Origin: a virus
DNA length: 32,481 nt
Direction: 5' to 3' (one strand)
Virus record (IMG/VR): IMGVR_UViG_3300031703_000031
Coordinates: 1 to 32,481 of that record
Each line of letters begins with the position of its first letter. Within the stretch, counting starts at the first letter, position 1. The position numbers and the translations under genes were made by a program. This document shows positions 3,488 through 32,481 of the stretch, piece by piece. The notes under the pieces are model-generated. The model had not been told where the DNA came from. It saw only the letters and a program-made list of their open reading frames with translations, and did not search any database.

Positions 3488-3511
3488 ATTGTAAAGTCCT
3501 TTATAGTGTGG

Positions 3512-3952: not shown

Positions 3953-3954
3953 GA

Positions 3955-18368: not shown

Positions 18369-20018
18369 TTAAAGCCACTGGGTATCATCAGTTATAAACG
18401 ATTGGTTCCTAAAAGAAACTTTTGTCGTTGATAACCTACCTCCGTGAGTACGGAGTACCTCTAAGGCTATTGCCGTTGCTATTACTGTGTCATCATGACA
18501 ACCTGAGATAGCATTTGTTTTACCACTGGCATCAGCCACATAGTTCATACACTCTTGTATGATAATGGGGGAGGCAAGAGAAATATCATCATTCTCTATT
18601 GCGTTCTTAAGATGCCCTATGATCATTGGCTTAGTAGCTTGGGTAGTCCTCCAACCCAGACGAGTACCTTCCTCATTAGATACATTAGCTACTTTAGTTT
18701 GATGGTATAAGTTCACGTAATCCATTTGTTTTAATCGGTTTAGTGTTGCTATACCTAAGGAATTAGATTCCACTGCAAGCAGGGAGTTGTTGTAGTATCT
18801 ACCTAAATAGAATAAAAGATCTCCGTATTGAGTGGGATCGATTTTATTATTCCGATAAACAGCACAGACTTCTCTGTCTGCATTAAGGACTACTGCTGCT
18901 GAGTAGTCTTGTCCAACCCCTAAAGCACAGTCAGCACCTATTATAAAGTTACTGTCAAACTTAGGGTACTTAAAGATCTCAAGGTGTCCCTCCCTGTGAT
19001 CGTCAAACGTACATGATTCAATACTGAAGTTTTGTCTTTTAACACAAATCTCTGGTTGCGTGTTTAATAGCTTACCCGTGTCAAATACGTTAGATCCTGA
19101 AACTATAAATGCTTCATTGGCTGTAGATGGGTACTCTTGTTTAAACTTATCCATACCCCCTTCGGCTATCTTAAGACGCCTCCAGTACAACTGTTCAATA
19201 TCTAATCCATGTAGTGTTTGTAACTCTTCCTCTGATTCTGTAATAGTATCTGAGAATACCTCAGGCTCTAATACAAATCGTCTGTACTCAGGCATTAAAA
19301 ACCACGGAACAAATATGGGGATATATTCATTCTCTCCAGCTACAGCACCCTTCCACAATCTATGAAACTCATTACCCACGCCATTGGCTGTGGACTCCAG
19401 GATTACTTCCGTACCGTCAGCTTGTGAGATACCTTGGAATAAACCAGCAAGAATCTTTGCATCATGAGTCCAAAAAGCAACTTCAGATAAGTGAGCAATA
19501 GTTGGTGTGGTTCCACGACCTGCCTCAGGGGAACCTGCTGTGTACAAACGATACCCTGAGTCATTGTGTTCAAACCCAATCTCCTTAGAGTTAGACTTCT
19601 TTAGCACAGGTTTAAACTCTGGCTTCATGTTTTGTATAATATTACGTGACATGGAGAAGAGTGCATCAGACGTTGCTGAGTCATGTGCCATAACAACTGA
19701 TTTGTTAAACGGTGTAAGGTACGACTTCCAGTATACACGTCCACAAGAGTAAGTTGATAAACCCATCTGCCTTGCCTTAAGTATAATAGCGCGTACCTTA
19801 CCTGTTTCTTTTAATTGTTTTTCTATTGCATCATCTACAATCTGTTGAGCTGCATTAAACTCTAAGGGTATAAAACCCCTACCTGCATCTTTTGGTAATA
19901 TACGGATCTGTTCTTTAGCGAAGTCTTGGAAGGACCCCTCGTATCTTACGAGATCCTTACGCTTCTGAATTTCTATTGCTAAAGCCAGCTTCTGTCTATT
20001 GGTTATTTTAGTTTCCAA
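18369..20018 (-). CDS. terL: Terminase large subunit (packaging ATPase and nuclease)
   Basis: A 549-residue protein that drives DNA into the capsid and cuts the concatemer. ATPase parts: variant Walker A LKARQMGLST (about 80-89), Walker B IAHLSEVAFW with the catalytic E (about 174-183), coupling motif ILESTANG (about 206-213). RNase H-like nuclease parts: IIGADCALGVGQD (first acid about 363), LAVESNSLG, and GCHDDTVIATAIA near the end. No ATG exists at the front. A frame from TTG 20075 has no ribosome site; TTG 20018 has GGAGG seven bases upstream and starts METKITNRQKLALA, so I chose it. It is the first gene of the leftward late block, below the tandem promoter-like elements at 20373-20430. 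Confidence 0.88.
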   Translation of the reverse strand: METKITNRQKLALAIEIQKRKDLVRYEGSFQDFAKEQIRILPKDAGRGFIPLEFNAAQQIVDDAIEKQLKETGKVRAIILKARQMGLSTYSCGRVYWKSYLTPFNKSVVMAHDSATSDALFSMSRNIIQNMKPEFKPVLKKSNSKEIGFEHNDSGYRLYTAGSPEAGRGTTPTIAHLSEVAFWTHDAKILAGLFQGISQADGTEVILESTANGVGNEFHRLWKGAVAGENEYIPIFVPWFLMPEYRRFVLEPEVFSDTITESEEELQTLHGLDIEQLYWRRLKIAEGGMDKFKQEYPSTANEAFIVSGSNVFDTGKLLNTQPEICVKRQNFSIESCTFDDHREGHLEIFKYPKFDSNFIIGADCALGVGQDYSAAVVLNADREVCAVYRNNKIDPTQYGDLLFYLGRYYNNSLLAVESNSLGIATLNRLKQMDYVNLYHQTKVANVSNEEGTRLGWRTTQATKPMIIGHLKNAIENDDISLASPIIIQECMNYVADASGKTNAISGCHDDTVIATAIALEVLRTHGGRLSTTKVSFRNQSFITDDTQWL

Positions 20019-20204
20019 AGGGAGTCCTCCAAGACTACGTTTAGGTAACCCCTGCCATGAGGGGTTTGTAAGCAATACAAAATAAATAAAAGAGTAGTTA
20101 CCTCATAGTACTACTAAGGGACCTATAGTACCTATAGTATCCCTAAGGAACTCCCTAGTATATAAGAAGGTATAGCAGTAGTAGTTAACCTTAGGTATCC
20201 TTAA

Positions 20205-20225
20205 GAACCTATAAGTACTTAACTT
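20205..20225 (-). promoter_or_regulatory. Variant of the promoter-like element, leftward
   Basis: On the minus strand this reads AAGTTAAGTACTTATAGGTT, the same TTAAGTAC and TTATAGG words as the tandem elements at 20373-20430 with one base missing between them. It points toward the terminase gene. Two more leftward CTATAGG words lie at 20122-20128 and 20131-20137. It could be a weaker or decayed copy. Confidence 0.4.
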
Positions 20226-20372
20226 ACTACTCTTGAGGGGGGTGTCTGACTGTTATATCTATATATATTAGATACAAGTACAGTGATGTAGCTACTCAGA
20301 GACCCCCTCGTATCTCTTAAGGTAGTACCTTACCGTGTCCAGTATCTGGTACTACCCTAGCTACTCACTAGT

Positions 20373-20396
20373 GTTCCTATAAGGTACTTAAAAGAT
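20373..20396 (-). promoter_or_regulatory. Phage promoter-like element, leftward (downstream copy)
   Basis: On the minus strand it begins with the 16-base core ATCTTTTAAGTACCTT and continues ATAGGAAC. It is identical over 25 bases to the copy at 20407 and 34 bases away from it. Both read toward the terminase and late block. TATAGGA at the end recalls the TATAGGG start region of T7-type promoters. The same core occurs before two rightward operons. Confidence 0.65.
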
Positions 20397-20406
20397 TATA
20401 TGTATT

Positions 20407-20430
20407 GTTCCTATAAGGTACTTAAAAGAT
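20407..20430 (-). promoter_or_regulatory. Phage promoter-like element, leftward (upstream copy)
   Basis: Second of two identical tandem copies (34-base period). Minus-strand core ATCTTTTAAGTACCTT followed by ATAGGAAC. A tandem pair before the late block would fit the high output that structural genes need. No such word was found inside any gene. Confidence 0.65.
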
Positions 20431-20487
20431 ATAAGGGTTTCACAGAAGTTTATCTAGGGGATACACGGGTAAGTCCCTTGATATACA

Positions 20488-20707
20488 GGGTACCTTCATT
20501 ACTTCGGTACCCCCCAAGATCCCCAAGGGGATCCCTCAGGATACCTAGGGTATCCCTTAGACACCCTCAGTATCCCGTAGGAATACTAAGGGGATCATCC
20601 AAACTAACCTTAGGGATACAAAAGGAGTCCACCTAGAGCCATAGAAGGGAGGATTATCCACTCGTAGTACCAAGGGGTCCCTTGGGATACCCAAAAGTAT
20701 CCCAAGG
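20488..20707. repeat. Cluster of perfect short inverted repeats
   Basis: Perfect dyads: GGGTACC/GGTACCC (20488-20494 with 20506-20512), GATCCCC/GGGGATC (20518-20524 with 20527-20533), GGATACC/GGTATCC (20539-20545 with 20549-20555), CCAAGGG/CCCTTGG (20670-20676 with 20679-20685) and an 11-base stem CCTTGGGATAC/GTATCCCAAGG (20680-20690 with 20697-20707). The last two overlap, so they are alternatives. None is followed by a clear U-run, so they do not read as plain terminators. Confidence 0.7.
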
Positions 20708-20926
20708 AACATCTATATATCTACCACAATACCCAAGGAGGATAACCTCAGGGGCTAGTGTAGTGGCAATACAATCAAGGTAGTATCTCAGTGTACTTTG
20801 GGAAATAGCTGGTTGACTTTCATCTAAAAGCAAATCATCTTGACTTCAACAATATCAGACCATCGACGCAGGTCGCTATCGCGCCCCCAGTAGCTTTCAA
20901 GATTACTTGATTGCCTTAAAAAACAA

Positions 20927-20946
20927 AGATTACCCTGAGGTAATCT
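20927..20946. promoter_or_regulatory. Perfect eight-base dyad before the first rightward gene
   Basis: AGATTACC and GGTAATCT (20927-20934, 20939-20946) flank a CTGA loop and end about ten bases before the AAAGGAG ribosome site of the gene at 20968. As DNA it is a good operator for a dimeric repressor; as RNA it is a stable hairpin at the messenger's leader. The sequence does not tell which. Confidence 0.5.
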
Positions 20947-20967
20947 CTAAACCAAAAGGAGTGACCT

Positions 20968-21411
20968 ATGTCACAAGCAAAAGCAGTATCTAAGCAGCAA
21001 GAGATTCATGTGGTTCGGAATTGTTCAATCATCAATTCTAGGACCATCGAGCCAGTGTACCGTTCATTCGGTGGGCAGTACACTCTGCTAGTAAGTGGTC
21101 ATGGGCTTGACCTAGTGACCAAAGGCAAGTCAAACGAAGATGGTTCCGTTTGGCTCAACCAAAACGCCACATATCCCAATGGGGATCCCACTGGCGGCAT
21201 AGAGGTGGTGACTAAAGCGTTGAAACCCTTTGATAAGGGCGAGTTAGGAGAGGGTACCCTAGTAGACCTCCTCTTTAACGTTGTTAGAGTAAAAAAGGAA
21301 GTGTATTATAATATTCGAACTATTCGAGTGTTAGACCACATAGCCCCTTTCAACCACTTATCAGCGTTCGGTGAAGATGACACCGATGATGTTAATGAAG
21401 GCGACTTTTAA
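20968..21411 (+). CDS. First rightward gene; small protein with acidic C-terminal tail (ssDNA-binding-like?)
   Basis: A 147-residue protein. The body has short beta segments (GQYTLLVSGHGLDLV, GTLVDLLFNVVRVKKEVYYN, IRTIRVLDHI) that would suit an OB-type barrel, and the last 15 residues are strongly acidic, ending EGDF (GEDDTDDVNEGDF). Acidic tails closing in an aromatic residue are typical of phage single-strand-binding proteins such as T7 gp2.5, where the tail recruits polymerase. The gene at 25717 has the same type of end. Strong ribosome site AAAGGAG, own leader dyad and own terminator: probably abundant and made early. Function is inference from composition only. Confidence 0.6.
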   Translation: MSQAKAVSKQQEIHVVRNCSIINSRTIEPVYRSFGGQYTLLVSGHGLDLVTKGKSNEDGSVWLNQNATYPNGDPTGGIEVVTKALKPFDKGELGEGTLVDLLFNVVRVKKEVYYNIRTIRVLDHIAPFNHLSAFGEDDTDDVNEGDF

Positions 21412-21434
21412 GCCTTTATACTAGATCTTCCCCT

Positions 21435-21470
21435 GAGGGGCTTCTACACGGAGCCTCTCACCTTTTTTTT
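21435..21470 (+). terminator. Rightward rho-independent terminator
   Basis: An eight-base stem with one mismatch (GAGGGGCT, 21435-21442; AGCCTCTC, 21452-21459) is followed by ACC and eight T residues. It ends the transcript of the gene at 20968. The base CCCC/GGGG pair at 21430-21440 is an alternative inner hairpin. Confidence 0.8.
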
Positions 21471-21472
21471 AA

Positions 21473-21543
21473 GGGCAACACCTTCGTGTTACCCCTCAAG
21501 CACACAAGTAAACTTGTGCTAACTCAATTGCCTCTGCGGCAAT
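21473..21543 (+). ncRNA. Array of three consecutive stem-loops
   Basis: Immediately after the terminator come three hairpins almost without spacing: GGG-AACAC/GTGTT-CCC with a CTTC loop (21473-21494), AGCACACAAGT/ACTTGTGCT with a two-base bulge (21499-21520), and ATTGCC/GGCAAT with a five-base loop (21527-21543). There is no reading frame. They could form a structured RNA processed from the following operon's leader, or be part of an origin. Type ncRNA is a tentative label. Confidence 0.4.
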
Positions 21544-21550
21544 CAAGCTC

Positions 21551-21636
21551 ATGCACACTCACGTGTACACTTATGCTACGCACTTATGCACACTCACGTG
21601 TACACCCATGCTACGCACTCATGCACACTCACGTGT
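21551..21636. repeat. 35-bp tandem repeat, about 2.5 copies
   Basis: The unit starting ATGCACACTCACGTGTACAC begins at 21551, 21586 and (partly) 21621; copies differ by two C/T changes. Each unit carries CACGTG and GTGTACAC palindromes and a second half ATGCTACGCACT that echoes the first. Repeats abut directly, with no spacers, and the region codes for nothing. Such iterons are usual at replication origins or at protein-loading sites. Confidence 0.75.
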
Positions 21637-21674
21637 GCCTTGGGCCAGCAGGTAAACCGACATAAGGAATTATA

Positions 21675-21845
21675 ATGTCTTACGAAGAAAAGTATTTAGA
21701 AAATGAAGTAGTAGAGGTAGTAGGAGTAAGTAAGAAAACAAACTCCTTCTCAACATATATCCAGAATAACGAAACTGTGGATAAACAGATGGATAACTTA
21801 ATGGAGTTCGTCTTTGGAGATGTTCTATTCAGGGAGGTAGAATAA
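21675..21845 (+). CDS. 56-residue acidic hypothetical protein
   Basis: Reads MSYEEKYLENEVVEVVGVSK at the start, ends in VFGDVLFREVE. Acidic, probably helical, no domain recognised. AAGGAA lies seven bases before the ATG, and its TAA overlaps the ATG of the next gene (TAATG), so the two are coupled. First gene after the hairpin and repeat region; small acidic early proteins in phages often bind and block host enzymes, but nothing here shows a target. Confidence 0.6.
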   Translation: MSYEEKYLENEVVEVVGVSKKTNSFSTYIQNNETVDKQMDNLMEFVFGDVLFREVE

Positions 21846-22027
21846 TGTTCATACTCTTAGTCCTAATGTTCGCAGTAGATAACCAAGACTTCTTAGAAGC
21901 AGTGGAAGTCAACAAGAATCAAGGAATGAAATGGACATATGTTGGTGCTCAAGATCCAACAAACAATCCATACGTACCTATCGTAAGAGAAGATGGTAAA
22001 GAAATAATAATCTTTAAAATGAAATAA
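21845..22027 (+). CDS. 60-residue hypothetical protein
   Basis: MFILLVLMFAVDNQDFLEAV at the start: a short hydrophobic stretch that is too short and too acidic on its far side to be a confident membrane segment. The C-terminal half (WTYVGAQDPTNNPYVPIVRE, IIIFKMK) looks like two beta strands. Start overlaps the stop of the gene before. No family recognised. Confidence 0.5.
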   Translation: MFILLVLMFAVDNQDFLEAVEVNKNQGMKWTYVGAQDPTNNPYVPIVREDGKEIIIFKMK

Positions 22028-22043
22028 TCCAAGAGGAAGAACA

Positions 22044-22316
22044 ATGTACATATTACACTTAATCATAAAAGACTATTGTAAGCACACAGTATGTGTGGAG
22101 TTCCGCAAAGGTGAAACAGCAATCACCGATGCAAAGAAAAAACTAATCAGCGAAGCAAAAGGCGAAGCTTGCGAAATAATCTTCTGCAACGATGAAGGAA
22201 TGCCCTTCAAATTTGAACCTGTAGCAGGTGATAACGCAGAGAATGAACATGTACATACTATTGCAGTGTGTCTATGTGTAGTAATCATAGTAGCAGCATT
22301 TACAGGAATATTATAA
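22044..22316 (+). CDS. 90-residue protein with C-terminal membrane segment
   Basis: Residues 1-65 are a small alpha/beta part (MYILHLIIKDYCKHTVCVEF, DAKKKLISEAKGEACEIIFC) with four cysteines; residues about 72-90 (IAVCLCVVIIVAAFTGIL) form one membrane helix at the very end. A tail-anchored small early protein on the cytoplasmic face of the inner membrane; takeover or exclusion functions are possible. GAGGAAG precedes the ATG. Confidence 0.55.
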   Translation: MYILHLIIKDYCKHTVCVEFRKGETAITDAKKKLISEAKGEACEIIFCNDEGMPFKFEPVAGDNAENEHVHTIAVCLCVVIIVAAFTGIL

Positions 22317-22392
22317 TTAACCAAACCTAGAACAGGCAAGTAGCTAGGTGAGAATTGGGATCTGCCATCAGCACACATACATAAGCTAATAT

Positions 22393-22445
22393 GAGCAACC
22401 TATGGATTAATAATAAACCTCACTATGAGAGGCCATAGTTTGCTC
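22393..22445. promoter_or_regulatory. Nested hairpin in the 204-base gap before the 91-codon gene
   Basis: A 13-base outer stem with one mismatch (GAGCAAcCTATGG, 22393-22405; CCATAGtTTGCTC, 22433-22445) encloses a smaller CCTC/GAGG stem (about 22418-22432). It is not followed by a U-run. It may be a processed RNA leader element, a terminator of unusual type or an operator. The remainder of 22317-22520 shows no gene. Confidence 0.5.
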
Positions 22446-22520
22446 TAACTTTAACGTAGTTCTGTACTATATTATTAGGGAAAGTGTACTAATCTATTTA
22501 TAAACCAACAGGAAGTAATT

Positions 22521-22796
22521 ATGCGAAGAACAGATATATTAAAAATGCAACTTAACAACAGCAGGGGTAGGTTCTTCACTGCTACCTACAAATCAGTAGT
22601 AGGTCAAATGAAAACTATGAACTTCAAAGTTAAAGAAGTTCTAGAGTTCAAGAACAACCACGTAAAATGTGAAGTTTACATTCCAAGAATCATGAGCACA
22701 GAAGTGGTTGTGTTCAACATCGGTCGAACAGGTGACCTACAATATCTAGCAGCAGATAAAAGCAAAATCAGCATGTCAGGTAAAGGTCTCTTATAG
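22521..22796 (+). CDS. 91-residue basic hypothetical protein
   Basis: MRRTDILKMQLNNSRGRFFT at the start, then TYKSVVGQMKTMNFKVKEVL, NHVKCEVYIPRIMSTEVVVF. Mostly beta with a basic face, size and pattern like small nucleic-acid-binding barrels. AGGAAG precedes the ATG. It has its own 200-base leader with a nested hairpin and is followed by the hairpin/promoter element at 22803. Function unknown. Confidence 0.55.
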   Translation: MRRTDILKMQLNNSRGRFFTATYKSVVGQMKTMNFKVKEVLEFKNNHVKCEVYIPRIMSTEVVVFNIGRTGDLQYLAADKSKISMSGKGLL

Positions 22797-22802
22797 TAAT
22801 CA

Positions 22803-22837
22803 GGTACTTAGAAGAATAATCTTTTAAGTACCTTTAG
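22803..22837 (+). promoter_or_regulatory. Promoter-like element before rIIA, overlapping an inverted repeat
   Basis: The core ATCTTTTAAGTACCTT (22819-22834) ends 27 bases before the rIIA-like start and points with it. Here TTATAGG is shortened to TTTAG. The core is also the right arm of a 13-base hairpin (GGTACTTAGAAGA, 22803-22815; TCTTTTAAGTACC, 22820-22832; one G-U pair, ATAA loop) followed by TTT, so it could serve as a terminator of the preceding gene as well as, or instead of, a promoter. Confidence 0.5.
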
Positions 22838-22863
22838 CACATCAAACCAATAGGAATAGAATA

Positions 22864-24942
22864 ATGCAATTATCCAACTATGGTAATGCGGCACAAGTAA
22901 TCGGTGTCCAGCACACCCAACAATTCCAGATGCAAATGAACGCTAAAATGTTCAGCATCTTAACCGATAAACTGTATCAAAACAAAGAAGGTGCAGTCAT
23001 TCGTGAGCTGTCTGCTAATGCAAGAGATGCACATGTTGCAGCTGGCAAAGCAGAGTTACCATTTCATATCACCTTACCCTCATGGATCTCGACAGAGTTC
23101 AAGATACGTGACTTCGGTACTGGCATAGATCCCGATGAATTTTATGATGTATACACAAACCTAGGACACTCAACCAAAGACCATGAGGATACCTCAATTG
23201 GCGCTTATGGATTAGGCTCAAAGACTCCGTTTGCTATCACTGACAGTTACACAATACGTAACTACTGGAATGGTATGGTCTATGTGTACACTGCATTTAA
23301 AGACTCAGGTATGCCCACAGTGTCCTTAGTAGGTTCAGAAGCTTCTGATGAAGTTAATGGACTTGAGATCAGTGTTGATATTGGTTCAGATGGTAATGTA
23401 TCTTCTTTCCGCAGAGAATGTGGAGAACAACTAGGATACTTCACTTTCAAACCAATCATACATAACTATGATGACTTCGTATGGCCTGAAATACCTGAGT
23501 TACACATGGGGTATGATGTAAAGTCTGGACACTATTCTTCTGAGATTACAGTAGTAATGGGCGGTATACCATATACCTCACCTATACGCTCACTTCCAGA
23601 AGGTTTAAAGAACTCTCTTTACCGACTAGACATAACTCTTGTAGCAGAGCTTGGTCAAGTGGATATACCACCATCAAGAGAGTCGTTAGAAATGACAGCT
23701 AAAACCATTGCATTCATTTCTGATAAGATTGCAGAAATATCTGGAGACTACATAATAGATTTCGAATATAGAGTAGAACATGCAGATAATCATGTTCAAC
23801 TAAATGCAATACTAAATAGCAGGATAGACGAATGGCTAAGTAATGGGCATTTCAATACGTCCAATTACAAATACAAAGGACTTACGTCTTCAGGTGAAAC
23901 GCTCACAGAACTACTTGATCAGGATCTAAAAACGTTTAATGCAAAGAAAAACGTTAGACATTACAAAAGCCTCAGGAATAACCACAATGGTTGTTCAGTA
24001 GGGTCACTTATAAACATGATGAAGAACTATAATCATGATAAAGATCAATCTACTCTGTACTTAAACGATTTATCACCAAGAGCTAACAAAGTAATAAATA
24101 GTAATAAAAGCGTACTGGAGACTAATTGTGTAGTTATCTTTCCTAATGAAAGAAAAACAAAACTGTTCTCAAAAGCTGTAAGTGAGGTACATGCAGAGTT
24201 AACTCAACTAGGTTTCAAACCTGTAAAGTTATCAACAATTCTGTCAATGCCCGTTGTAATTAAAAACACAACAAAAAGTAAAACGTATGACAAACCTGAT
24301 CAGGTATTCTTAACGAATAACAGAGGTGTTGTGCTTAAAGATTCAGTAAAAGAACTTCCAGAAGAAGGTTGTTTCGTAACAATGTCCAACTGGACTCTGG
24401 GTAAACGGGAATCATACATATCCTGTGTTAGGCTTTTACTTAACAAAGAAGTGTATGCTCTAAGAAGTCATGCTCAAGCTGCAGCATCTCGTTCAGGTAA
24501 GTGGACTTCAATCCATAAACTAGAAAGTGCCGTAGTAAAAGCATTAACTGCAAGACTAAAAAGAGCAAAAGATGCCGAAGAAACCTTGAGAATCCTAACA
24601 GTGCATGCAAACTGCGGACCATTGTTTGACGAAAACATAGAGAAAGTTGAACTAAACCCTAAGAAAAAGCTAGCAAAGCTTATTAAAGTTTGTAGGGAAG
24701 TACAAGTGGAGTTCAACAACTCTCGTCTGTCACGTGAAGAGGAATATCAAATCCTAAACTTAGGAATCCCCGAGTACAGGTCTGAAGCTAGGCCACCAGC
24801 GTACATAGTTAGGTACGCAAATGAAACGTCTGATAAGTGGTCTCTAATTATCATGTCAACGTTCTACCATAACAGGTGGAATGATGGAGGTAAGGAAGCA
24901 TTACGTCAGGCACTTAATCTAATCGAAGGTAATTTCAAATGA
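22864..24942 (+). CDS. rIIA-like GHKL-fold ATPase
   Basis: A 692-residue protein with an N-terminal GHKL ATP-binding domain: N-box RELSANARDAHVAAG (E48, N52, D55), G1 box IRDFGTGID (D83, G85, G87) and G2 box SIGAYGLGSKTPF (about 111-123). The remaining 450 residues resemble the long C-terminus of phage rIIA-like proteins. In T4, rIIA with rIIB lets infection proceed in lambda lysogens that carry the RexAB exclusion system and affects lysis timing; the biochemical role remains unclear. The next gene is the rIIB partner and overlaps by four bases, which makes the call firm. All ATP-binding residues are present. Confidence 0.8.
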   Translation: MQLSNYGNAAQVIGVQHTQQFQMQMNAKMFSILTDKLYQNKEGAVIRELSANARDAHVAAGKAELPFHITLPSWISTEFKIRDFGTGIDPDEFYDVYTNLGHSTKDHEDTSIGAYGLGSKTPFAITDSYTIRNYWNGMVYVYTAFKDSGMPTVSLVGSEASDEVNGLEISVDIGSDGNVSSFRRECGEQLGYFTFKPIIHNYDDFVWPEIPELHMGYDVKSGHYSSEITVVMGGIPYTSPIRSLPEGLKNSLYRLDITLVAELGQVDIPPSRESLEMTAKTIAFISDKIAEISGDYIIDFEYRVEHADNHVQLNAILNSRIDEWLSNGHFNTSNYKYKGLTSSGETLTELLDQDLKTFNAKKNVRHYKSLRNNHNGCSVGSLINMMKNYNHDKDQSTLYLNDLSPRANKVINSNKSVLETNCVVIFPNERKTKLFSKAVSEVHAELTQLGFKPVKLSTILSMPVVIKNTTKSKTYDKPDQVFLTNNRGVVLKDSVKELPEEGCFVTMSNWTLGKRESYISCVRLLLNKEVYALRSHAQAAASRSGKWTSIHKLESAVVKALTARLKRAKDAEETLRILTVHANCGPLFDENIEKVELNPKKKLAKLIKVCREVQVEFNNSRLSREEEYQILNLGIPEYRSEARPPAYIVRYANETSDKWSLIIMSTFYHNRWNDGGKEALRQALNLIEGNFK

Positions 24943-25700
24943 ATATAATCACAGATCATTCAGTAACGCTCTTTGACAATCTAAAACCTGTCACAGTAAC
25001 AGACTCCCATGCTCTGTTTGAAGATATAAAAGATCTAGTGTCAATGGGAAACTACAATGAAGCCCTAGACTTAATTGACAACAGGCGTACAGCTAAGAAA
25101 GCAATCACTAATACTGACTTTGAGTTAGTGGGTGACTGCTTGTACTTAGACGACTACCGAATCCCTGACAACATGGCTTCGCGTATCTTCGACCTAACAG
25201 CTAGCTACAACTCTGTAAAGCCACTGGAAAGGTTCTTCCGCAACTTACTAGCTAACCCATCATATCGTGCAGTACAGGAGTTATACGGCTTCCTAGAACT
25301 GTCTAAGCTACCAATCACAGATGATGGATACTTTGTTGCATACAAAGCAGTCAACTATGACTATCGTGATTGCTACACAGGCACTATGGATAACAGCGTA
25401 GGTGCACAACCGACCATGCCACGTAATCTAGTGGACGAAGATAAGAATCGTACATGCTCTGCAGGTCTGCACTTTGCAGGATATGAGTATGCACGTGGGT
25501 TTGTACCAAGTGAAGGCCATCTAATGGCTGTTCGTATTAACCCAAAAGATGTAGTCGCCATCCCTTCAGATTATAACAACATGAAAGGTCGTGCATCGAC
25601 TTATACTATTGTCAATGAGATCGAAGGTATGCATGACACACTAACAGATACGCCTCTGTATAAAGGCGACTTAGAAGCACAATCATCACTATCACTATAA
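24939..25700 (+). CDS. rIIB-like protein
   Basis: A 253-residue protein. The C-terminal part carries the block typical of phage rIIB-like proteins: LYGFLELSKLPITDDGYFVA, YKAVNYDY, CYTGTMDNSVG, MPRNLVDEDKNRTCSAGLHF and GYEYARGF (about 115-190). The N-terminal 90 residues include a helical repeat-like stretch (DIKDLVSMGNYNEALDLIDN). The ATG overlaps the rIIA stop (ATGA), so the pair is made together and probably forms a complex. Marine phages without other T4 features often carry such a pair; the role in them is not known. Confidence 0.8.
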   Translation: MNIITDHSVTLFDNLKPVTVTDSHALFEDIKDLVSMGNYNEALDLIDNRRTAKKAITNTDFELVGDCLYLDDYRIPDNMASRIFDLTASYNSVKPLERFFRNLLANPSYRAVQELYGFLELSKLPITDDGYFVAYKAVNYDYRDCYTGTMDNSVGAQPTMPRNLVDEDKNRTCSAGLHFAGYEYARGFVPSEGHLMAVRINPKDVVAIPSDYNNMKGRASTYTIVNEIEGMHDTLTDTPLYKGDLEAQSSLSL

Positions 25701-25716
25701 TCCAAAGGATATACAA

Positions 25717-26187
25717 ATGTCAGACACAAACTTAGGAACAAGCATCTTACGTAACGTAACACTCAACTATCTAAAAGTTGACCCATCAAAGCCAGTATCT
25801 CCTTTCGGAACATTGCAGTGGGAAGTTCAAATCGAAGTACCAGAAGATCGATCTGATGAAATCTCAGAGATGGGTAAACTTCGTACACTAGATAATGGTA
25901 ACGTAGCTGTAAACATCAAACGCAAAGCTTTAAAGCATGATGGGTCAGCAAACTTCCCAGTAGCACTTGTAGATGCTAAGAAACAACCAATTGAAGTTTA
26001 CACAAACATTGGTAACGGTAGTACAGGTAACGTCAAAGTATATCGTAATGAATACGATGTAGCTGGTCGTCAAGGTATCTCAACAAGCCTTAGTGCAATC
26101 CAAATCACTAATCTAATTGAGTACACAGGATCAGTAGATTTTGACATTGAAGCAGATGACGCAGTAGCAACACACGACGACTTCTAA
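25717..26187 (+). CDS. Putative single-stranded-DNA-binding protein
   Basis: A 156-residue protein: GTSILRNVTLNYLKVDPSKP, VSPFGTLQWEVQIEVPEDRS, NGNVAVNIKRKALKHDGSAN, then NGSTGNVKVYRNEYDVAGRQ, and an acidic end (FDIEADDAVATHDDF). Similar proteins in marine phages replace T7 gp2.5 and are described as SSB-like; the beta-rich body and acidic tail ending in an aromatic residue fit. It is the last gene of the rIIA operon, with a terminator right after it, as expected for a protein needed in quantity. Confidence rests on remembered family likeness. Confidence 0.6.
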   Translation: MSDTNLGTSILRNVTLNYLKVDPSKPVSPFGTLQWEVQIEVPEDRSDEISEMGKLRTLDNGNVAVNIKRKALKHDGSANFPVALVDAKKQPIEVYTNIGNGSTGNVKVYRNEYDVAGRQGISTSLSAIQITNLIEYTGSVDFDIEADDAVATHDDF

Positions 26188-26197
26188 ATAGAAACAA

Positions 26198-26228
26198 GAG
26201 AGGCCTAGCAAGCCTCTCACTATTTTAT
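26198..26228 (+). terminator. Rightward terminator after the SSB-like gene
   Basis: Perfect seven-base stem GAGAGGC/GCCTCTC (26198-26204, 26212-26218) with a seven-base loop, followed by ACTATTTTAT. The T-run is short, so some read-through into the next genes is likely, and no promoter is visible before the gene at 26359. Confidence 0.65.
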
Positions 26229-26357
26229 ATGTCAAGTGACAAAGGAATGTACCTAAAGTATCTAAAGGAACCGTTGAGGCAAGAAACTCAGATGGTTATG
26301 TTAATACCCACATTAATGTTCATATCTTTCATTCTAAATATGATCGACAGGAAGTAA
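26229..26357 (+). CDS. 42-residue membrane peptide
   Basis: MSSDKGMYLKYLKEPLRQET, then one hydrophobic segment (MVMLIPTLMFISFILNMI) and IDRK. It ends one base before the ATG of the GP88-like gene (TAA A ATG), and that gene's ribosome site lies inside its last codons, so translation is coupled. There is no ribosome site before its own ATG, which sits right beside the terminator, so it may be made poorly or start at an internal codon. Only the membrane anchor can be stated. Confidence 0.4.
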   Translation: MSSDKGMYLKYLKEPLRQETQMVMLIPTLMFISFILNMIDRK

Positions 26358-26358
26358 A

Positions 26359-27009
26359 ATGATTAAACTATCTAAAACAAGCAAGATGCCACGTAAATGT
26401 AAATCATGGTCGTTGGAAGCCTTGAAGACATGCCCCGGAAGTATTAAAGAAGTAGTCAAAGGAATTATAGAACTTGTAGATGCGTGTAAAGGTTGTTACG
26501 CAACAACTGGTATGTATAACATGCCTAATGTTAAAGCACCAAGAGCACATAACAAAGAAGATTGGAAAAGAAAAGATTGGGTTGCAGATATGATTGCATC
26601 AATACTAAATGATGAACTGTTTAGATGGTTCGACAGTGGAGACTGTTATGACGTACGTCTAGCAAGAAAGATTAAACAAGTTATAGAAGGGACACCAACA
26701 ACTAAACATTGGTTCCCAACAAGACAACACAAGTTCCCTAAATTCGCCAAGATATTAAATGAGATAGCTGCTATGCCTAACGCAGTAGTACGTCTATCCT
26801 CTGATTCTATCAATGGTGGTATCATAGAAGGTGAAACCACTTCAACTATATGGAGTGTTAAACCACCTAAAGAAGCCTTTGAATGTGGTGCATATACAAG
26901 AGAAGGTCAATGTAAAGATTGTAGAGCATGTTGGGATAAGACAGTAAAAGTAGTTGCATACCCCGGTCATGGGGCAAAGATGCTTAAAGTAATCAGAATA
27001 CAAGGGTAA
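26359..27009 (+). CDS. GP88-like phage protein with cysteine clusters
   Basis: A 216-residue protein resembling the phage family Gene product 88. Front: TCPGS (C25), then ACKGCYATTGMYN (C43, C46). Middle: ELFRWFDSGDCYDVRLARKI and TKHWFPTRQH, VVRLSSDSI, in the rhythm of alternating beta/alpha barrel elements. End: FECGAYTREGQCKDCRACWD, that is C176, C185, C188 and C191 in a C-x8-C-x2-C-x2-C pattern. Seven cysteines in two groups suggest zinc or an iron-sulphur cluster. The family has no known function to me; its shape recalls short radical-SAM-like barrels, but the classical CxxxCxxC loop is not present, so no activity is claimed. Confidence 0.65.
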   Translation: MIKLSKTSKMPRKCKSWSLEALKTCPGSIKEVVKGIIELVDACKGCYATTGMYNMPNVKAPRAHNKEDWKRKDWVADMIASILNDELFRWFDSGDCYDVRLARKIKQVIEGTPTTKHWFPTRQHKFPKFAKILNEIAAMPNAVVRLSSDSINGGIIEGETTSTIWSVKPPKEAFECGAYTREGQCKDCRACWDKTVKVVAYPGHGAKMLKVIRIQG

Positions 27010-27013
27010 TAAA

Positions 27014-27430
27014 ATGATAGAAGCAGCAATAATGTGCTTAGCACTAAATATATACCACGAAGCAAGAGATCAACCAATAGTAGGTCAAATAGCCGTAGGT
27101 TTTAGCACGTTAAATCGTGTAAAAGACAAACGATACCCATCAACTGTGTGTGGAGTGGTCAAACAAGCTAGGTATCATGAATGGAATACCGACTATCCAA
27201 TACGACATCGTTGCCAATATTCATGGTTTTGTGATGGATTATCAGACATACCTAAAAACGACAAAGCTATGCTAGAAGCGTCACTGCTTGCACATGCTAT
27301 CTTTTATGGGTCGGTAACTGATATCTCAGATGGTGCGACACACTACCATGCTACGTGGATTGATACGCCATATTGGGCAGATCATATGACTACAGTTTTT
27401 ACAATTGATGATCATATATTCTACCGATAA
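27014..27430 (+). CDS. SleB-type cell wall hydrolase
   Basis: A 138-residue protein of the SleB/Hydrolase_2 family. Signatures: ALNIYHEARDQPIVGQIAVG with the likely catalytic E16, LNRVKDKRYPSTVCGVVKQ, CQYSWFCDG (67-75) and GATHYHATWIDTPYWA. Family members are lytic transglycosylases that split the glycan backbone of peptidoglycan. There is no signal peptide or binding domain. It is the second wall-degrading enzyme of this phage, but is carried on the rightward strand, 23 kb from the M15 endolysin, with the GP88-like gene four bases upstream. It may help lysis or act at another infection stage. Confidence 0.82.
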   Translation: MIEAAIMCLALNIYHEARDQPIVGQIAVGFSTLNRVKDKRYPSTVCGVVKQARYHEWNTDYPIRHRCQYSWFCDGLSDIPKNDKAMLEASLLAHAIFYGSVTDISDGATHYHATWIDTPYWADHMTTVFTIDDHIFYR

Positions 27431-27457
27431 AGCATTGACGTCTAGGTTACTCTCTAG

Positions 27458-27480
27458 ATCTTTTAAGTACCTTATAGAAC
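27458..27480 (+). promoter_or_regulatory. Promoter-like element before the small-terminase operon
   Basis: Core ATCTTTTAAGTACCTT at 27458-27473 continues ATAGAAC, differing from the leftward tandem copies by one missing G. It lies in the 75-base gap between the SleB gene and the gene at 27506, 26 bases before that ATG, and reads with it. Nothing like a terminator is obvious in the gap. Confidence 0.65.
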
Positions 27481-27505
27481 TTATAATAACTACGGAGTAA
27501 CCTAC

Positions 27506-28000
27506 ATGAAAGATCACGTTAAGTACGTGGATGGCGTTGTAAAGCCTGAAAACCTAACAAAAAAGCCTAAGATTGCAATAACAGAATCTTCACTTGCAAA
27601 CCTTAAACCTAGATGGGATAAGGAACACATGAAAATGATGCAGGGTAAGAGTATAGAAAAGCGGAAATCTAACAAAGAAGCCCGTGAGAAAATGAAAGAA
27701 ACTGTTGAAATCTTAAAGTATTTATCAGATGGTGTAATTGCAGACATGCCAACAGGTCTAACAGTTATGCAAATAATGATGCTAAGGGCTATACAAGACG
27801 GTGATCCTGCAGAAGCATCTAAGCTTGCTGCAACTATAGCTGAATACCAACAGCCTAAACTTCAACGTAGTGAGAACATAAACACTAATATCAATTTAGA
27901 AGACCTTACTGATGAAGAACTAGCACAACAACTAGCAATCATAAATGAACCTAACCTAAAACCACTAAAAGATATAGAGGGTGAGGTTGTTAATGACTAG
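27506..28000 (+). CDS. Probable terminase small subunit
   Basis: A 164-residue helical protein. The middle (GLTVMQIMMLRAIQDGDPAE, ASKLAATIAEYQQPKLQRSE) and the acidic C-terminal LEDLTDEELAQQLAIINEPN follow the plan of phage small terminases: multimer-forming helices, a 'K P' turn, and a tail that binds the large subunit. The basic N-terminal half would hold the DNA-binding part. Its position away from terL, on the other strand, is unusual but is known in podoviruses. No helix-turn-helix can be picked with certainty. CGGAG precedes the ATG. Confidence 0.5.
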   Translation: MKDHVKYVDGVVKPENLTKKPKIAITESSLANLKPRWDKEHMKMMQGKSIEKRKSNKEAREKMKETVEILKYLSDGVIADMPTGLTVMQIMMLRAIQDGDPAEASKLAATIAEYQQPKLQRSENINTNINLEDLTDEELAQQLAIINEPNLKPLKDIEGEVVND

Positions 28001-28133
28001 CTACAACAACATAACTGGTGATGCGCTAGTATCTAAAAGTAATACTAAGAAGTTCAGAGATAATTACGACAAAATATTCTCTAAGCCTGATAAGGAAAAG
28101 AAAGATGAAAGAAAACTTAAAAGAGTTCCTTAA
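27993..28133 (+). CDS. 46-residue basic peptide
   Basis: Reads MTSYNNITGDALVSKSNTKK, then FRDNYDKIFSKP and a Lys/Arg-rich end. The pattern 'SYN-ITGD-L-(S/T)K-ST--(F/Y)R-NYD-IF' is a small conserved phage peptide I recognise, of unknown role. It overlaps the end of the small-terminase-like gene by eight bases and the next gene by 29 bases. Possibly co-operates with that terminase protein, given the coupling. Confidence 0.55.
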   Translation: MTSYNNITGDALVSKSNTKKFRDNYDKIFSKPDKEKKDERKLKRVP

Positions 28134-28209
28134 AGGAGCTACGTACACACTAGTTTTTATAACAGTATTAATCTTATTAATCAAAAATAGCTCAGAAGCT
28201 TTATGGTGA
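28105..28209 (+). CDS. 34-residue membrane peptide
   Basis: MKENLKEFLKGATYTLVFIT then VLILLIKNSSEALW: a charged N-terminus and one membrane helix (about 12-27). It starts inside the previous gene, with AAGGA nine bases upstream, and ends five bases before the next ATG. Tiny one-helix proteins in phages often act as pinholins or modulators; here nothing decides this. Confidence 0.45.
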   Translation: MKENLKEFLKGATYTLVFITVLILLIKNSSEALW

Positions 28210-28214
28210 ACTAA

Positions 28215-28496
28215 ATGACCCCTAACTTTTTAAGTGACGAAGCATGTCAGTTTTTAATAAAAGACTACTCTGCAAATCGTTGGAGTGATCCCGTACTAAA
28301 ACCTAAAATGATCGCAGTTAATGAAGAATACTTCAGATCAATCCAAAGAGATAGCGAGTTCTTAGAGATTCTAATGGAAAAGAAACTTGAAGAATGGGAA
28401 TCCTATGATGAATGTGTGAACGAACACGACAGGAATCTATCTGAATCAGAAATGGAAGGAGAAGAATATGCACATGGGAATCGTTTTCAAACCTAA
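28215..28496 (+). CDS. 93-residue acidic hypothetical protein
   Basis: MTPNFLSDEACQFLIKDYSA at the start; the C-terminal half is highly acidic (EKKLEEWESYDECVNEHDRN, SESEMEGEEY). No domain recognised. No clear ribosome site, so translation is probably coupled to the gene just upstream. Overlaps the next gene by 29 bases. Confidence 0.5.
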   Translation: MTPNFLSDEACQFLIKDYSANRWSDPVLKPKMIAVNEEYFRSIQRDSEFLEILMEKKLEEWESYDECVNEHDRNLSESEMEGEEYAHGNRFQT

Positions 28497-28716
28497 GATA
28501 GGTGAACACCTGCGTAAGTCAGAAGGGTACAGGTCTGATAAATACAGTGAAGAAGAGTTAGAAACAATCGTTCAACTTAGAGCCAATGGAGTCACATACA
28601 AAGCGTGTGGTGAATCTATAGGTAAACCAGTAGGAAGTATTGCTAACATGATAAGTTATCACGACCTTCAGTATAGAATTGATAAAGCAATAAAGCTTAG
28701 AGGATTAGGACTATGA
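28468..28716 (+). CDS. Small helix-turn-helix protein
   Basis: An 82-residue protein whose middle, YSEEELETIVQLRANGVTYK then ACGESIGKPVGSIANMISYH, has the spacing of a helix-turn-helix (helix of E/L/I, 'ANGVTYKACGESIG' turn, recognition helix 'PVGSIANMI'). Likely DNA binding: a transcription factor or a terminase-like recognition unit. Good ribosome site (AAGGAG) before ATG 28468. It overlaps both neighbours. Confidence 0.6.
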   Translation: MHMGIVFKPKIGEHLRKSEGYRSDKYSEEELETIVQLRANGVTYKACGESIGKPVGSIANMISYHDLQYRIDKAIKLRGLGL

Positions 28717-29432
28717 ACATAGTTCTTTCCCTCTATGATTACACTGGTGTAGCTGCAATACCTTGGGCTAAAACAGGGCATACATGCTATTGTTATGACA
28801 TACAACATGATGGTACACAAGTAGATAAGTATGAAGGTGGTGGTTCTATACACTACCTAAATGCAGACCTACACGACTACAGTTCCTTACTGTCTCTATG
28901 GCATAAGTTTAGAGATGCAGATAGTAACATTGTGTTTGCAATGGCATTCCCTGTGTGCACTGACTTAGCTGTAAGCGGTGCTGCATGGTTTAAAGCTAAA
29001 TACTTCAAAGATCCTCAGTTCCAAAGAAAAGCAGTAAGTTATGCAAGGTGGTGTGATGAATTATTCGCTGATCTAAAAGTTCCATACTATATAGAAAACC
29101 CAGTATCAGTCTTGTCAACAAAATGGCGTAAGCCAGACTATCGTTTCCACCCCTATGAATACGGTGGTTACATCAAAAAGAATGAAGAAATCCACCCACT
29201 GTATCCAGAATACATTGCACCAAGAGATGCATACTCTAAAAGAACATGTCTGTGGACAGGTGGTAAATTCAAAATGCCAGCAAAAGATCCAGTAAGTTGT
29301 GAAAACTATGGAGCAAGTACGCAACATAGTAAACTTGGAGGTAAGTCTATGAAAACAAAGAACATACGATCCGCAACTCCAAGAGGTTTTGCAGAAGCAG
29401 TGTATCAAGCTAATTCGGAAAATACATTATGA
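28713..29432 (+). CDS. DNA cytosine-C5 methyltransferase-like protein
   Basis: A 239-residue protein. VLSLYDYTGVAAIPWAKTGH (4-23) stands for the S-adenosylmethionine loop (motif I), followed by the acidic CYDIQHD; AMAFPVCTDLAVSGAAWF has the catalytic-loop P-x-C (80-82, motif IV); YYIENPVSVLSTKWRKP has ENP (128-130, motif VI). Matches a phage family annotated as cytosine methyltransferase. It is shorter than restriction-type enzymes (usually over 300 residues), and no target-recognition domain or QxRxR motif is visible, so the substrate is uncertain: phage DNA protection or another base modification. Overlaps both neighbours by four bases. Confidence 0.65.
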   Translation: MNIVLSLYDYTGVAAIPWAKTGHTCYCYDIQHDGTQVDKYEGGGSIHYLNADLHDYSSLLSLWHKFRDADSNIVFAMAFPVCTDLAVSGAAWFKAKYFKDPQFQRKAVSYARWCDELFADLKVPYYIENPVSVLSTKWRKPDYRFHPYEYGGYIKKNEEIHPLYPEYIAPRDAYSKRTCLWTGGKFKMPAKDPVSCENYGASTQHSKLGGKSMKTKNIRSATPRGFAEAVYQANSENTL

Positions 29433-29749
29433 AATCTAAAGTTGGTTATAGTATTGGTGAACCGTCTAAAGAAGAACCTTGGTTCGATGACTTCGGAGAT
29501 ACTGATAAATTATGTATAAGAAGTGCAACAAACTCACAAGTAGGTGGTGATCATTACAAAAACCAAGGAATACAACCACTTGAGGCTACCTTTGTTAACT
29601 TCGGTTACGAGGGAGTACGTGCATCAATCTATACAAAAGTAGGTAAATACCTAACACGCGATAAAGGTACACATCGTCAAGATATAACAAAAGCTATACA
29701 CGTATTGCAAATGCAAATAGAGTTCCTAGATAGAGACAATAAAGAATGA
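29429..29749 (+). CDS. DUF3310 protein (T7 gp1.7-related)
   Basis: A 106-residue protein with NSQVGGDHYKNQGIQPLEAT (35-54), the mark of DUF3310, then SIYTKVGKYLTRDKGTHRQD and a C-terminal helix. DUF3310 occurs in T7 gp1.7, a nucleotide kinase that makes dGTP and dTTP precursors. The rest of gp1.7 is missing here, so kinase activity cannot be assumed. It sits among nucleotide metabolism genes (redoxin, ribonucleotide reductase), which supports a nucleotide role. ATGA overlaps on both sides. Confidence 0.75.
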   Translation: MKSKVGYSIGEPSKEEPWFDDFGDTDKLCIRSATNSQVGGDHYKNQGIQPLEATFVNFGYEGVRASIYTKVGKYLTRDKGTHRQDITKAIHVLQMQIEFLDRDNKE

Positions 29750-30003
29750 TTACAATAGTAACTGAAATACTTTGGCTATCAACAGCACTTGCAGTGTTTT
29801 CTTCAGTAATACTCTTCATACTAAACCCACTGTATGCTTACTGGATAGAAAACAAATACCGTATAGATTTAGAAAGCGAACTGTACATAAAAGTATCGGA
29901 AGCTGTAGAAATAGCAGTAGAAGATGGATTACAAATTAGTATTAATTTCACAGTGGGAGAACCAGAAGTTGAAGAAGCCTCAAAAGAAAAAGAAAGTACC
30001 TAG
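29746..30003 (+). CDS. 85-residue membrane protein
   Basis: An N-terminal membrane segment (about 7-32: EILWLSTALAVFSSVILF then ILNPLYAYWI), followed by a charged helical part and a Glu/Lys-rich tail. The tail's DNA is also read in another frame as the start of PhoH. No family recognised. Its ATG overlaps the DUF3310 stop, and ribosome sites between these genes are absent, so coupling is likely. Confidence 0.5.
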   Translation: MITIVTEILWLSTALAVFSSVILFILNPLYAYWIENKYRIDLESELYIKVSEAVEIAVEDGLQISINFTVGEPEVEEASKEKEST

Positions 30004-30667
30004 TAACTCGCTAGGTTTGCAAGCGTTATCTCAAAACCAATCGCACTACATAAACTCAATAGATGATAATGTAGTGTCAGTTGGAACTGGTTTCGCAGGG
30101 TCAGGTAAAACATATATCGCATCTACATGTGCTGCTCAATTTATGATTGACAACAAAGATAGCCGTATCGTTTTATGCAGACCTAATGTATCTGATTCAA
30201 AATCTATAGGCTTCTTACCCGGAGAAGAATTAGATAAAATGGCACCTTGGATTACCCCATACACTGACGTACTACGTAAGCACCTAAATGGTACTTATGA
30301 GAAAGCTATGCAGTCAGGGTCAATTCAAGTAGTTCCATTCGAATACATGCAAGGTAGAACATTCGATAACTCTTTTGTTATCTTAGACGAAGCACAGCAT
30401 ACAACACCAAAAGAAATAGAAATGTTTCTCAAGAGAATAGGTAAAGATTCAAAAGTAGTTATATGTGGTGACATACCCCAAGCGAGATTAGGGCCTAAAT
30501 CAGGTCTTAATCTCTTAATAAACATGCACACCGACAAAACGTTACCTGAAGTGTCAGAGAACATCGGTGTGACAGATTTCAATAACCCAGATGACATTGT
30601 AAGGTCTGTATTCTGCAGAGAAATAACAAAAGCATTTGACAGATACTACACAATGAATGGAAATTAA
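29969..30667 (+). CDS. phoH: PhoH-like ATPase
   Basis: A PhoH-family P-loop protein, common in marine phages: Walker A GTGFAGSGKT, a CRPNVSDSKSIGFLPG segment typical of the family, Walker B FVILDEAQHTT and VVICGDIPQARLG. Members are RNA or nucleotide-associated ATPases whose role in phage is still unclear. An ATG at 29924 opens the frame, but its first 15 residues look like frame-shifted upstream coding sequence and lack a ribosome site; TTG 29969 follows GGGAG by nine bases and gives a basic start (MKKPQKKKK), 232 residues. I prefer the latter. Phosphate control is not shown here. Confidence 0.82.
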   Translation: MKKPQKKKKVPSNSLGLQALSQNQSHYINSIDDNVVSVGTGFAGSGKTYIASTCAAQFMIDNKDSRIVLCRPNVSDSKSIGFLPGEELDKMAPWITPYTDVLRKHLNGTYEKAMQSGSIQVVPFEYMQGRTFDNSFVILDEAQHTTPKEIEMFLKRIGKDSKVVICGDIPQARLGPKSGLNLLINMHTDKTLPEVSENIGVTDFNNPDDIVRSVFCREITKAFDRYYTMNGN

Positions 30668-30668
30668 T

Positions 30669-30845
30669 ATGGTATTCGACACAGGACAATGGCTAAGGTC
30701 AACAGTAATCTCATACAGGCGAGGGATACCCCACTTACTTCAGTACGAGTTAAGTGAAGAAGAAATAATAACACTAGCTCAACTAGTAGATGCCTTAACA
30801 GCAGCAAGAATAGAAGAAGCAATGAACAACAGAGGTGATGAATGA
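30669..30845 (+). CDS. 58-residue hypothetical protein
   Basis: MVFDTGQWLRSTVISYRRGI, then a helix ELSEEEIITLAQLVDALTAA and an acidic end. ATG 30669 has GGAA at good spacing; ATG 30657, inside the PhoH end, has none. No domain recognised. It overlaps the redoxin gene by four bases, so its expression is tied to that of nucleotide genes. Confidence 0.5.
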   Translation: MVFDTGQWLRSTVISYRRGIPHLLQYELSEEEIITLAQLVDALTAARIEEAMNNRGDE

Positions 30846-31075
30846 TTATCAAGTTTTACACAAAAGGTTGCCAACCATGCTATGCACTAAAAACATTGCT
30901 GGACAATCTAATGGTTGAGTATGTGTCTTGCAACATAGAAGAAGAATATCAAATAGCTGCTGATAATAAAGTAATGAGTGTGCCTACACTGCTAAACACT
31001 GAAACAGGCAAGAGACTTATTGGTTTCAAGAATGAAGAAAAAGTAAAGGAATTTCTAAATGACAATAACAGTTGA
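30842..31075 (+). CDS. Glutaredoxin/NrdH-like redoxin
   Basis: A 77-residue thioredoxin-fold protein. KFYTKGCQPCYALK has the redox pair C10-x2-C13 and MSVPTL the cis-proline P48. It passes electrons to ribonucleotide reductase, whose gene starts inside its last codons, a strong hint that it serves that enzyme. The CQPC motif is intact; relatives of this short type are known as NrdH or NrdC. A four-base overlap with the gene upstream and 17-base overlap downstream suggest one messenger. Confidence 0.85.
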   Translation: MIIKFYTKGCQPCYALKTLLDNLMVEYVSCNIEEEYQIAADNKVMSVPTLLNTETGKRLIGFKNEEKVKEFLNDNNS

Positions 31076-32481
31076 TTACGAACGTAACAGTTTTCTTTCA
31101 GAGCAAGCATACACCCTCCTTAAGGACTACTATTGTCGTGATGGGGAAGACCCACAGGACGCTTATGCAAGGGCAGCTATGGCATTCTGTAAGTCTGATT
31201 ATGAATTAGCTCAACGCATATACGACTATGCAAGTAAAGGTTGGTTTATGTTTAGCTCACCTATCTTATCTAATGCACCAGCACTTGGAGAAAAAGTACG
31301 TGGTCTACCTATTAGTTGTTTCTTATCTTACGTCCCTGATACTCTTGAAGGTCTTATTGGACACAGCACGGAATTACGGTGGCTATCCGTCAAGGGTGGC
31401 GGTGTTGGCGGTCATTGGTCTGACATTAGGTCTGTCAGTGATGTGGCTCCCTCTCCTATACCCTTCTTAAAGACTGTCGATAGTGACATGACTGCTTACC
31501 GACAAGGTAAGACACGAAAAGGTTCTTATGCTGCTTACATGGACATAACACACCCAGATATTATTGAGTTCATTAACATACGAGTACCAACAGGTGGTGA
31601 CCCTAATCGAAAGGCGTTCAATATACACAACGCAGTGAACATTACTGATGCGTTTATGGATGCAGTAACCTCAGGTGGTCAGTGGGACTTAATAGACCCT
31701 AATGATAAGACAGTTAGGGATACATTACCTGCAAGAGAACTGTGGGAACGTCTAATTGAGACACGATTCCGCACTGGAGAGCCATACCTTAACTTTATTG
31801 ATGAAGCTAACAGGCACTTACCCCCAGAAATGCGTGAGAAAGGTCTTACTATCAATGGTTCAAACCTTTGTAATGAAATTCATCTACCGACAAACGAAGA
31901 TCGGACAGCAGTCTGTTGCCTGTCAAGTGTAAACCTTGAGTATTACGAGGATTGGAAGGAGACCACTATGGTGTCTGACCTCATAACTATGCTAGATAAT
32001 GTAATAAGTTTCTTTTGTTTCCATGCTCCCAAAGAACTACGTAAGGCTGTCTACAGTGCTACACAAGAGCGTTCTTTAGGACTAGGGGCAATGGGTTTCC
32101 ACAGTGCATTACAGCGTGTGGGGATACCTTGGGAGACCCCTATGGCTACTGCCTACAATACTGAGATGTTCACTCATATAAAAGCACAAGCAAGAGCAGC
32201 ATCAGTGCACCTAGCAGAAGAACGTGGTTCATGTCCTGATGTAGATGGAATACGCAACTCACACTTATTAGCAATAGCACCTAACGCCAACTCATCAATC
32301 ATTGCTGGTTGTTCAGCATCAATAGAACCTCTTAAATCTAATGCATTTACCCATCGTACAAGGGTAGGCGCTCACTTAGTTAAGAATCCATACCTATCAA
32401 AAGTACTTGAAGACCACAGTGACAGCCCTGAATGGATTGAAGCTCAGTGGAAATCAATAATACTACATGAAGGTAGTGTAC
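31059..32481 (+). CDS. Ribonucleotide reductase large (catalytic) subunit, 5' part cut by window edge
   Basis: 474 codons without a stop, ending at the window edge. It turns ribonucleotides into deoxyribonucleotides. Visible sites: C87 in PISCFLSYVPDTL (the C225 place of E. coli NrdA), NGSNLCNEI with N269, C271 and E273 (radical cysteine C439 and its partners), C286 or C287 in CCLSSVNL (C462 place) and APNANSSIIAGCSASIEP. There is no N-terminal ATP cone, so no dATP switch there. The radical-transfer tyrosines and the C-terminal cysteines that separate class I from class II are outside the window. The ATG has AAGGA eight bases upstream inside the redoxin gene. Confidence 0.88.
   Translation, partial: MTITVDYERNSFLSEQAYTLLKDYYCRDGEDPQDAYARAAMAFCKSDYELAQRIYDYASKGWFMFSSPILSNAPALGEKVRGLPISCFLSYVPDTLEGLIGHSTELRWLSVKGGGVGGHWSDIRSVSDVAPSPIPFLKTVDSDMTAYRQGKTRKGSYAAYMDITHPDIIEFINIRVPTGGDPNRKAFNIHNAVNITDAFMDAVTSGGQWDLIDPNDKTVRDTLPARELWERLIETRFRTGEPYLNFIDEANRHLPPEMREKGLTINGSNLCNEIHLPTNEDRTAVCCLSSVNLEYYEDWKETTMVSDLITMLDNVISFFCFHAPKELRKAVYSATQERSLGLGAMGFHSALQRVGIPWETPMATAYNTEMFTHIKAQARAASVHLAEERGSCPDVDGIRNSHLLAIAPNANSSIIAGCSASIEPLKSNAFTHRTRVGAHLVKNPYLSKVLEDHSDSPEWIEAQWKSIILHEGSV

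Follow-up and report, generated by a model that had tools for sequence, protein, structure and literature searches.

Results and discussion

Repeated intergenic elements in the window

The window analysed here is the whole of a 32.5-kb virus record (IMG/VR IMGVR_UViG_3300031703_000031; 32,481 nucleotides), and the elements in question are four short repeats lying before terL, before rIIA and before a gene of 164 amino acids (aa). A sequence-only reading of this DNA had taken the repeats for promoters of a phage RNA polymerase (RNAP). A DNA search of the window against phage records returned no match. Four exact copies of the 16-mer ATCTTTTAAGTACCTT were located at the places named in that reading, at 20381-20396 and 20415-20430 on the minus strand and at 22819-22834 and 27458-27473 on the plus strand. 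When up to three mismatches were allowed, the window held five matches to the 16-mer against a shuffle mean of 0.66, and none of 100 shuffles reached five, which confirms that the repetition exceeds chance. All four copies lie outside database-supported genes and point in the direction of the next gene, as had been described; the copy at 20415 is antisense within a mechanically called open reading frame (ORF) of 78 aa (20400-20636), which itself has no database support. The two copies facing terL are indeed identical over 25 bases and 34 bases apart, although their left edges had been placed one base off and belong at 20372 and 20406. Three copies run on to TATAG(G), as proposed, the exact continuation being TATAG(G/A), while the rIIA copy continues as TTTAGC. 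The terL and 164-aa sites have a TATA-like melting region with a G and purines after it (+1 to +3), which the rIIA site does not have. Additional weaker sites suggested at 20205, 20122 and 20131 did not hold up, since a weight matrix scan of the window gave only the three TATAG sites above the cut-off.

The phage encodes a divergent T7-type RNA polymerase

The sequence-only reading had placed the corresponding polymerase outside the window, and the search for a single-subunit RNAP gene on near-identical records supports this. A 752-aa RNAP is encoded 6.7 kb past the right window end (39227-41485 in window numbering), located 3' of the 27458 site and sharing its orientation. Record G002 (51.7 kb) is 99.5% identical to the window over 1-20635 and 99.99% identical over 25674-32481, record G005 is identical over 22579-32481, and both encode one and the same 752-aa enzyme. 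The first set of related records included six that reach 29 kb or more, and all six carry the RNAP. The protein matches the RNA_pol domain PF00940 (E 9.5e-52) and contains the catalytic motifs PVDGS, AKRGSMTRAY and IHDSF, in agreement with the DG, K..Y and HDSF signatures. Its predicted structure (mean predicted local distance difference test score, pLDDT, 69.6) has as best PDB match 1cez, the T7 RNAP-promoter complex (E 4.6e-24; template modelling score 0.67 by query length). Sequence identity is about 24% to the nearest Autographiviridae-type enzymes among the matches listed and 39% to the annotated T7-like RNAP of Roseobacter phage CRP-7. The 752-aa protein is thus a divergent single-subunit T7-type RNAP.

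Co-variation of motif and polymerase

In 2.9 million viral contigs (IMG/VR), the exact 19-mer was found in 41 stretches, 36 of which belong to the window phage group and five to one other family, with none elsewhere. The group holds 46 distinct core sites (31 before terL, 10 before the 164-aa gene and five before rIIA); every one is co-oriented with the next gene and none lies within a named gene, so that the intergenic, co-oriented placement is without exception across the 36 related stretches. Aligned on the predicted +1, the sites are nearly fixed from -18 to +1, with a purine at +2, A at +3 and unconserved flanks; an exact-match search favours seeing fixed positions, and loci found via the 164-aa protein largely agree.

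Phages with diverged polymerases carry altered motifs at matching gene positions. At 74% RNAP identity the motif of the one phage concerned reads TTTATAGTACCTTATAG, and phages with RNAPs of 63-65% identity have ATTATAGTACCTTATAG or CAATTA(A/G)GTACCTTATAG; the rIIA site of one relative (G018) likewise has the form of its own clade. In these relatives the upstream AT block is altered and GTACCTTATAG is retained, in parallel with the RNAP specificity loop GLGQIGHSIK, which is largely kept. As a comparison of sequences, this co-variation of motif and RNAP is a stronger test of the promoter reading than the conservation of the sites. The shorter clade-B/C promoter word calls for more care, in that five of its eight matches outside the family (L267, L274, L280, L281 and L288) share one common context, which is probably coding (one frame, GIIVPYRDR). 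Words of 17 bases are able to recur for coding reasons and the risk of coding coincidence is real for the clade-B/C word, whereas no coincidence of that kind was seen for the 19-mer.

Promoters of the phage's own polymerase as the preferred explanation

Taken together, the four repeats are very probably promoters of the phage's own divergent T7-type single-subunit RNAP, and this is the best explanation overall. The recognition unit would extend from -18 to +3 and, by analogy with T7, may be divided into an AT-rich upstream part, a core GTACC, a melting region TTATA and a start G followed by purines. The tandem copies would drive the leftward structural operon starting at terL, while one copy would drive a rightward operon in which the 164-aa gene comes first. 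Because the rightward operon includes the RNAP gene itself, positive feedback would be expected. The rIIA gene would be driven by a variant copy, which lacks TATAG and has spacing shorter by one base and is, for these reasons, probably a weaker promoter.

The promoters of T7, T3, SP6, VSW-3 and KP34 are similar in being about 20 bp long with an AT-rich upstream block and a class-specific core, and T7-type promoters also share the TATA followed by a G start and the intergenic, co-oriented placement. The window-phage promoters differ from the known T7-type ones by their core GTACC, and the polymerase differs in being a divergent 752-aa enzyme. VSW-3, whose promoter TTAATTGGGCCACCTATA|GTA occurs at four sites (PMC9624206), is a close functional precedent. 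KP34 likewise has four copies, and its RNAP reads two unrelated promoter classes (PMC6834552).

Several points weigh against this interpretation. The rIIA site has no TATAG; some four sites per 50-60 kb genome are few beside T7, although VSW-3 and KP34 have the same number; the host promoter required for the first transcripts of the RNAP gene was not identified; and the RNAP model is of moderate confidence, so that no reader of positions -17 to -11 could be checked in the N-terminal domain. It is very improbable that the repeats instead serve a host sigma factor as promoters or bind a regulator encoded by host or phage. Operators too are typically strictly conserved, intergenic and repeated, and the rIIA copy forms part of an inverted repeat; the motif, however, has a direction, with TATAG and purines at its end, and differs between RNAP clades, and host promoters rarely have twenty fixed bases. 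Moreover, a search for host sigma-70 promoters (-35/-10 hexamers with a 16-18 bp spacer) scored no pair at the four sites; one sigma-70-like pair (9/12) was placed just 3' of the rIIA core. It seems still less likely that the repeats belong to an origin of replication, to a packaging signal or to a mobile repeat: two copies do lie within palindrome-rich non-coding DNA beside terL, but the others precede rIIA and the 164-aa gene, and the copies are co-oriented without exception and vary along with the polymerase.

The positions of the putative promoters and neighbouring features are collected in Table 1. The inverted repeat that includes the rIIA core is near-perfect, and at the matching place a related phage (G004) has another inverted repeat.

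Table 1 Putative promoters and associated features in the window.
Feature	Position	Strand	Evidence or remark
Putative late promoter copy 1 before terL, ATCTTTTAAGTACCTTATAGGAACA	20406..20430	-	Predicted +1 G at 20411
Putative late promoter copy 2 before terL, same 25 bases as copy 1	20372..20396	-	Predicted +1 G at 20377
terL (large terminase subunit), heading the leftward structural operon	18369..20075	-	PHROG terminase match; 55% identity to CRP-7 TerL
Putative variant promoter before rIIA, ATCTTTTAAGTACCTTTAGC	22819..22838	+	Without TATAG, one base shorter; candidate start near G 22837
Inverted repeat GGTACTTAGAAGA-ATAA-TCTTTTAAGTACC, 3' arm = rIIA promoter core	22803..22832	+	Sequence; kept in relatives
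rIIA gene	22864..24942	+	PHROG RIIA E 7e-104
Putative promoter before 164-aa TerS-like gene, ATCTTTTAAGTACCTTATAG	27458..27477	+	Predicted +1 G at 27477
5' arm TAGGTTACTCT of hairpin hiding the ribosome-binding site	27443..27453	+	Missing from RNA begun at 27477
3' arm GGAGTAACCTA of the same hairpin	27494..27504	+	Includes Shine-Dalgarno GGAG of 164-aa gene
164-aa gene, TerS-like candidate	27506..28000	+	Heads rightward unit that includes RNAP gene outside window

The window also contains about 890 non-coding bases between terL and the next gene (20076-20968), rich in short palindromes of the CCTAGG/GGTACC type. This stretch is a possible origin or structured leader.

A putative promoter nested in a hairpin before the 164-aa gene

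A conserved RNA hairpin, formed by pairing of the two arms listed in Table 1, encloses the 27458 promoter in its loop. The hairpin folds at -20.9 kcal/mol (z -3.47), while an RNA begun at the predicted G is nearly unstructured (-0.1). An alignment of the arms in 13 sequences supports the structure around the 164-aa promoter, with 86.6% of cells paired against 30-47% when the partner was slid, and with three double changes; the hairpin is weak in three sequences (L223, L225 and L226). Since the hairpin would hide the ribosome-binding site, we infer that read-through RNA would not be translated and that RNA begun by the phage polymerase at the nested promoter would be, so that translation of the 164-aa protein would depend on initiation there.

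A comparable arrangement is found in T4, where the ribosome-binding sites of genes e, soc, 49 and I-TevI are hidden in long early RNA and become free in RNA begun at a late promoter; the late-promoter RNA of gene e, being without the 5' arm, is translated well (PMC3014915). The likeness lies in a nested promoter placed so that its RNA omits the 5' arm of the hairpin; unlike in T4, the promoter of the window phage would be read by a T7-type RNAP, and the gene concerned codes for a TerS-like candidate. A T4-like timing device is thus suggested for a phage with its own polymerase. The label of small terminase given to the 164-aa gene by the sequence-only reading is to be taken with reserve: the protein is distantly similar to the product of a CRP-7 gene located next to terL, but comparison with TerS family models gave neither a PHROG nor a Pfam TerS match.

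Candidate promoters in the cultured phage CRP-7

CRP-7 (MK613349), the nearest cultured relative, has the same genome plan as the window phage and lacks the window motif. In its genome (MK613349.1, L046/L047), TATAGTCC(A/C)(T/C)TATTAAAAGG occurs five times, each time between genes and co-oriented, at 2029, 7150 and 14767 on the plus strand and at 38262 and 57212 on the minus strand. One copy lies 25 nt before the RNAP gene, and the motif, though different from that of the window, can be aligned with it. These five repeats are candidate CRP-7 promoters; the paper describing CRP-7 does not mention promoters. The analysis as a whole offers putative polymerase-promoter pairs for a group of marine phages that is widespread but uncultivated, along with a candidate set in a cultured phage.

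Putative window-type promoters in the leaders of temperate phages

The five stretches outside the group (L045/G007, L005, L020, L026 and L044) are T7-type phages of one family. These G007-type phages have an integrase, a tRNA-like attachment site and an RNAP about 25% identical to the 752-aa enzyme, and within the family the promoters fall into several classes according to the RNAP. The window-type motif was rejected as a promoter of their own, because their own promoters differ and track the RNAP class. The RNAP leader of the five carriers contains one class-f (E1), one class-e (E2) and one window-type promoter (E3), each occurring once per contig, on the RNAP-coding strand and only in that leader. 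This array sits between the attachment site and the RNAP gene (3250-4000 in the G007 leader L249; also in L231, L233, L234 and L235). A strong terminator-like site precedes the G007 array, and none was scored on the RNAP strand from the array to the RNAP gene.

A tentative interpretation, which we consider quite possible but short of probable, is that the leader forms a co-oriented array of rivals' promoters, from which a rival RNAP appearing in the cell would transcribe the resident RNAP gene and so switch the phage on. Alternatively, the RNAP of the family itself may have a second specificity, or the copies may be neutral remnants of recombination; this is quite possible too, if somewhat less likely. 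The reading of two unrelated promoter classes by KP34 RNAP (PMC6834552) speaks for the former and the mosaic leader regions of the family for the latter. Against them, each foreign promoter is single and confined to the RNAP leader and strand, and two different RNAP classes (a and c) have an identical foreign-promoter set. Long words common to the carrier leaders and the class e/f leaders are almost only promoters (up to 21 bases) with no flanking homology; identity that stops at promoter edges is unlike a recombination tract. The 20-base window-type motif is also invariant amid flanks that are roughly 50-75% identical between diverged lineages, an invariance that has to be read with the fact that these contigs were found by exact match. 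An antisense ORF in G007 (9443-9724, '..SYKVLKR..') was considered as a cause of the conservation and rejected, its frame being broken by stops or shifts in relatives.

Phage satellites such as P4 and similar elements respond to the transcription machinery of a helper phage. If the array works as proposed, G007-type phages would resemble them in responding to another phage's transcription machinery; unlike such satellites, the carriers encode an RNAP, a terminase and an integrase of their own, have the appearance of full temperate phages and combine promoters of three foreign polymerase classes in one leader. Temperate phages sensing rivals via carried promoters would, if true, constitute a new kind of phage-phage interaction. 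A literature search for a comparable promoter array found nothing relevant, most subscription papers lying outside the search.

A scan of species genomes for the RNAP of the G007-type phages matched a single contig, in a Bermanella metagenome-assembled genome, too little for a firm assignment of hosts. For three of the five carriers, the source metagenomes (3300009512, 3300027668 and 3300025276) contain window-type phages as well. A ribonucleotide reductase region is common to the window (30971-32375) and G007 (20942-22346) at 77% DNA identity, which, between otherwise unlike phages, points to exchange of genes and to hosts in common. Upstream of E3, another promoter-like copy, CTTTTRAGTCCCTTAAARAA, is present in L005 and L020 only (L231 and L234) in the viral-contig scan, and perhaps serves another polymerase of the CRP-7 type.

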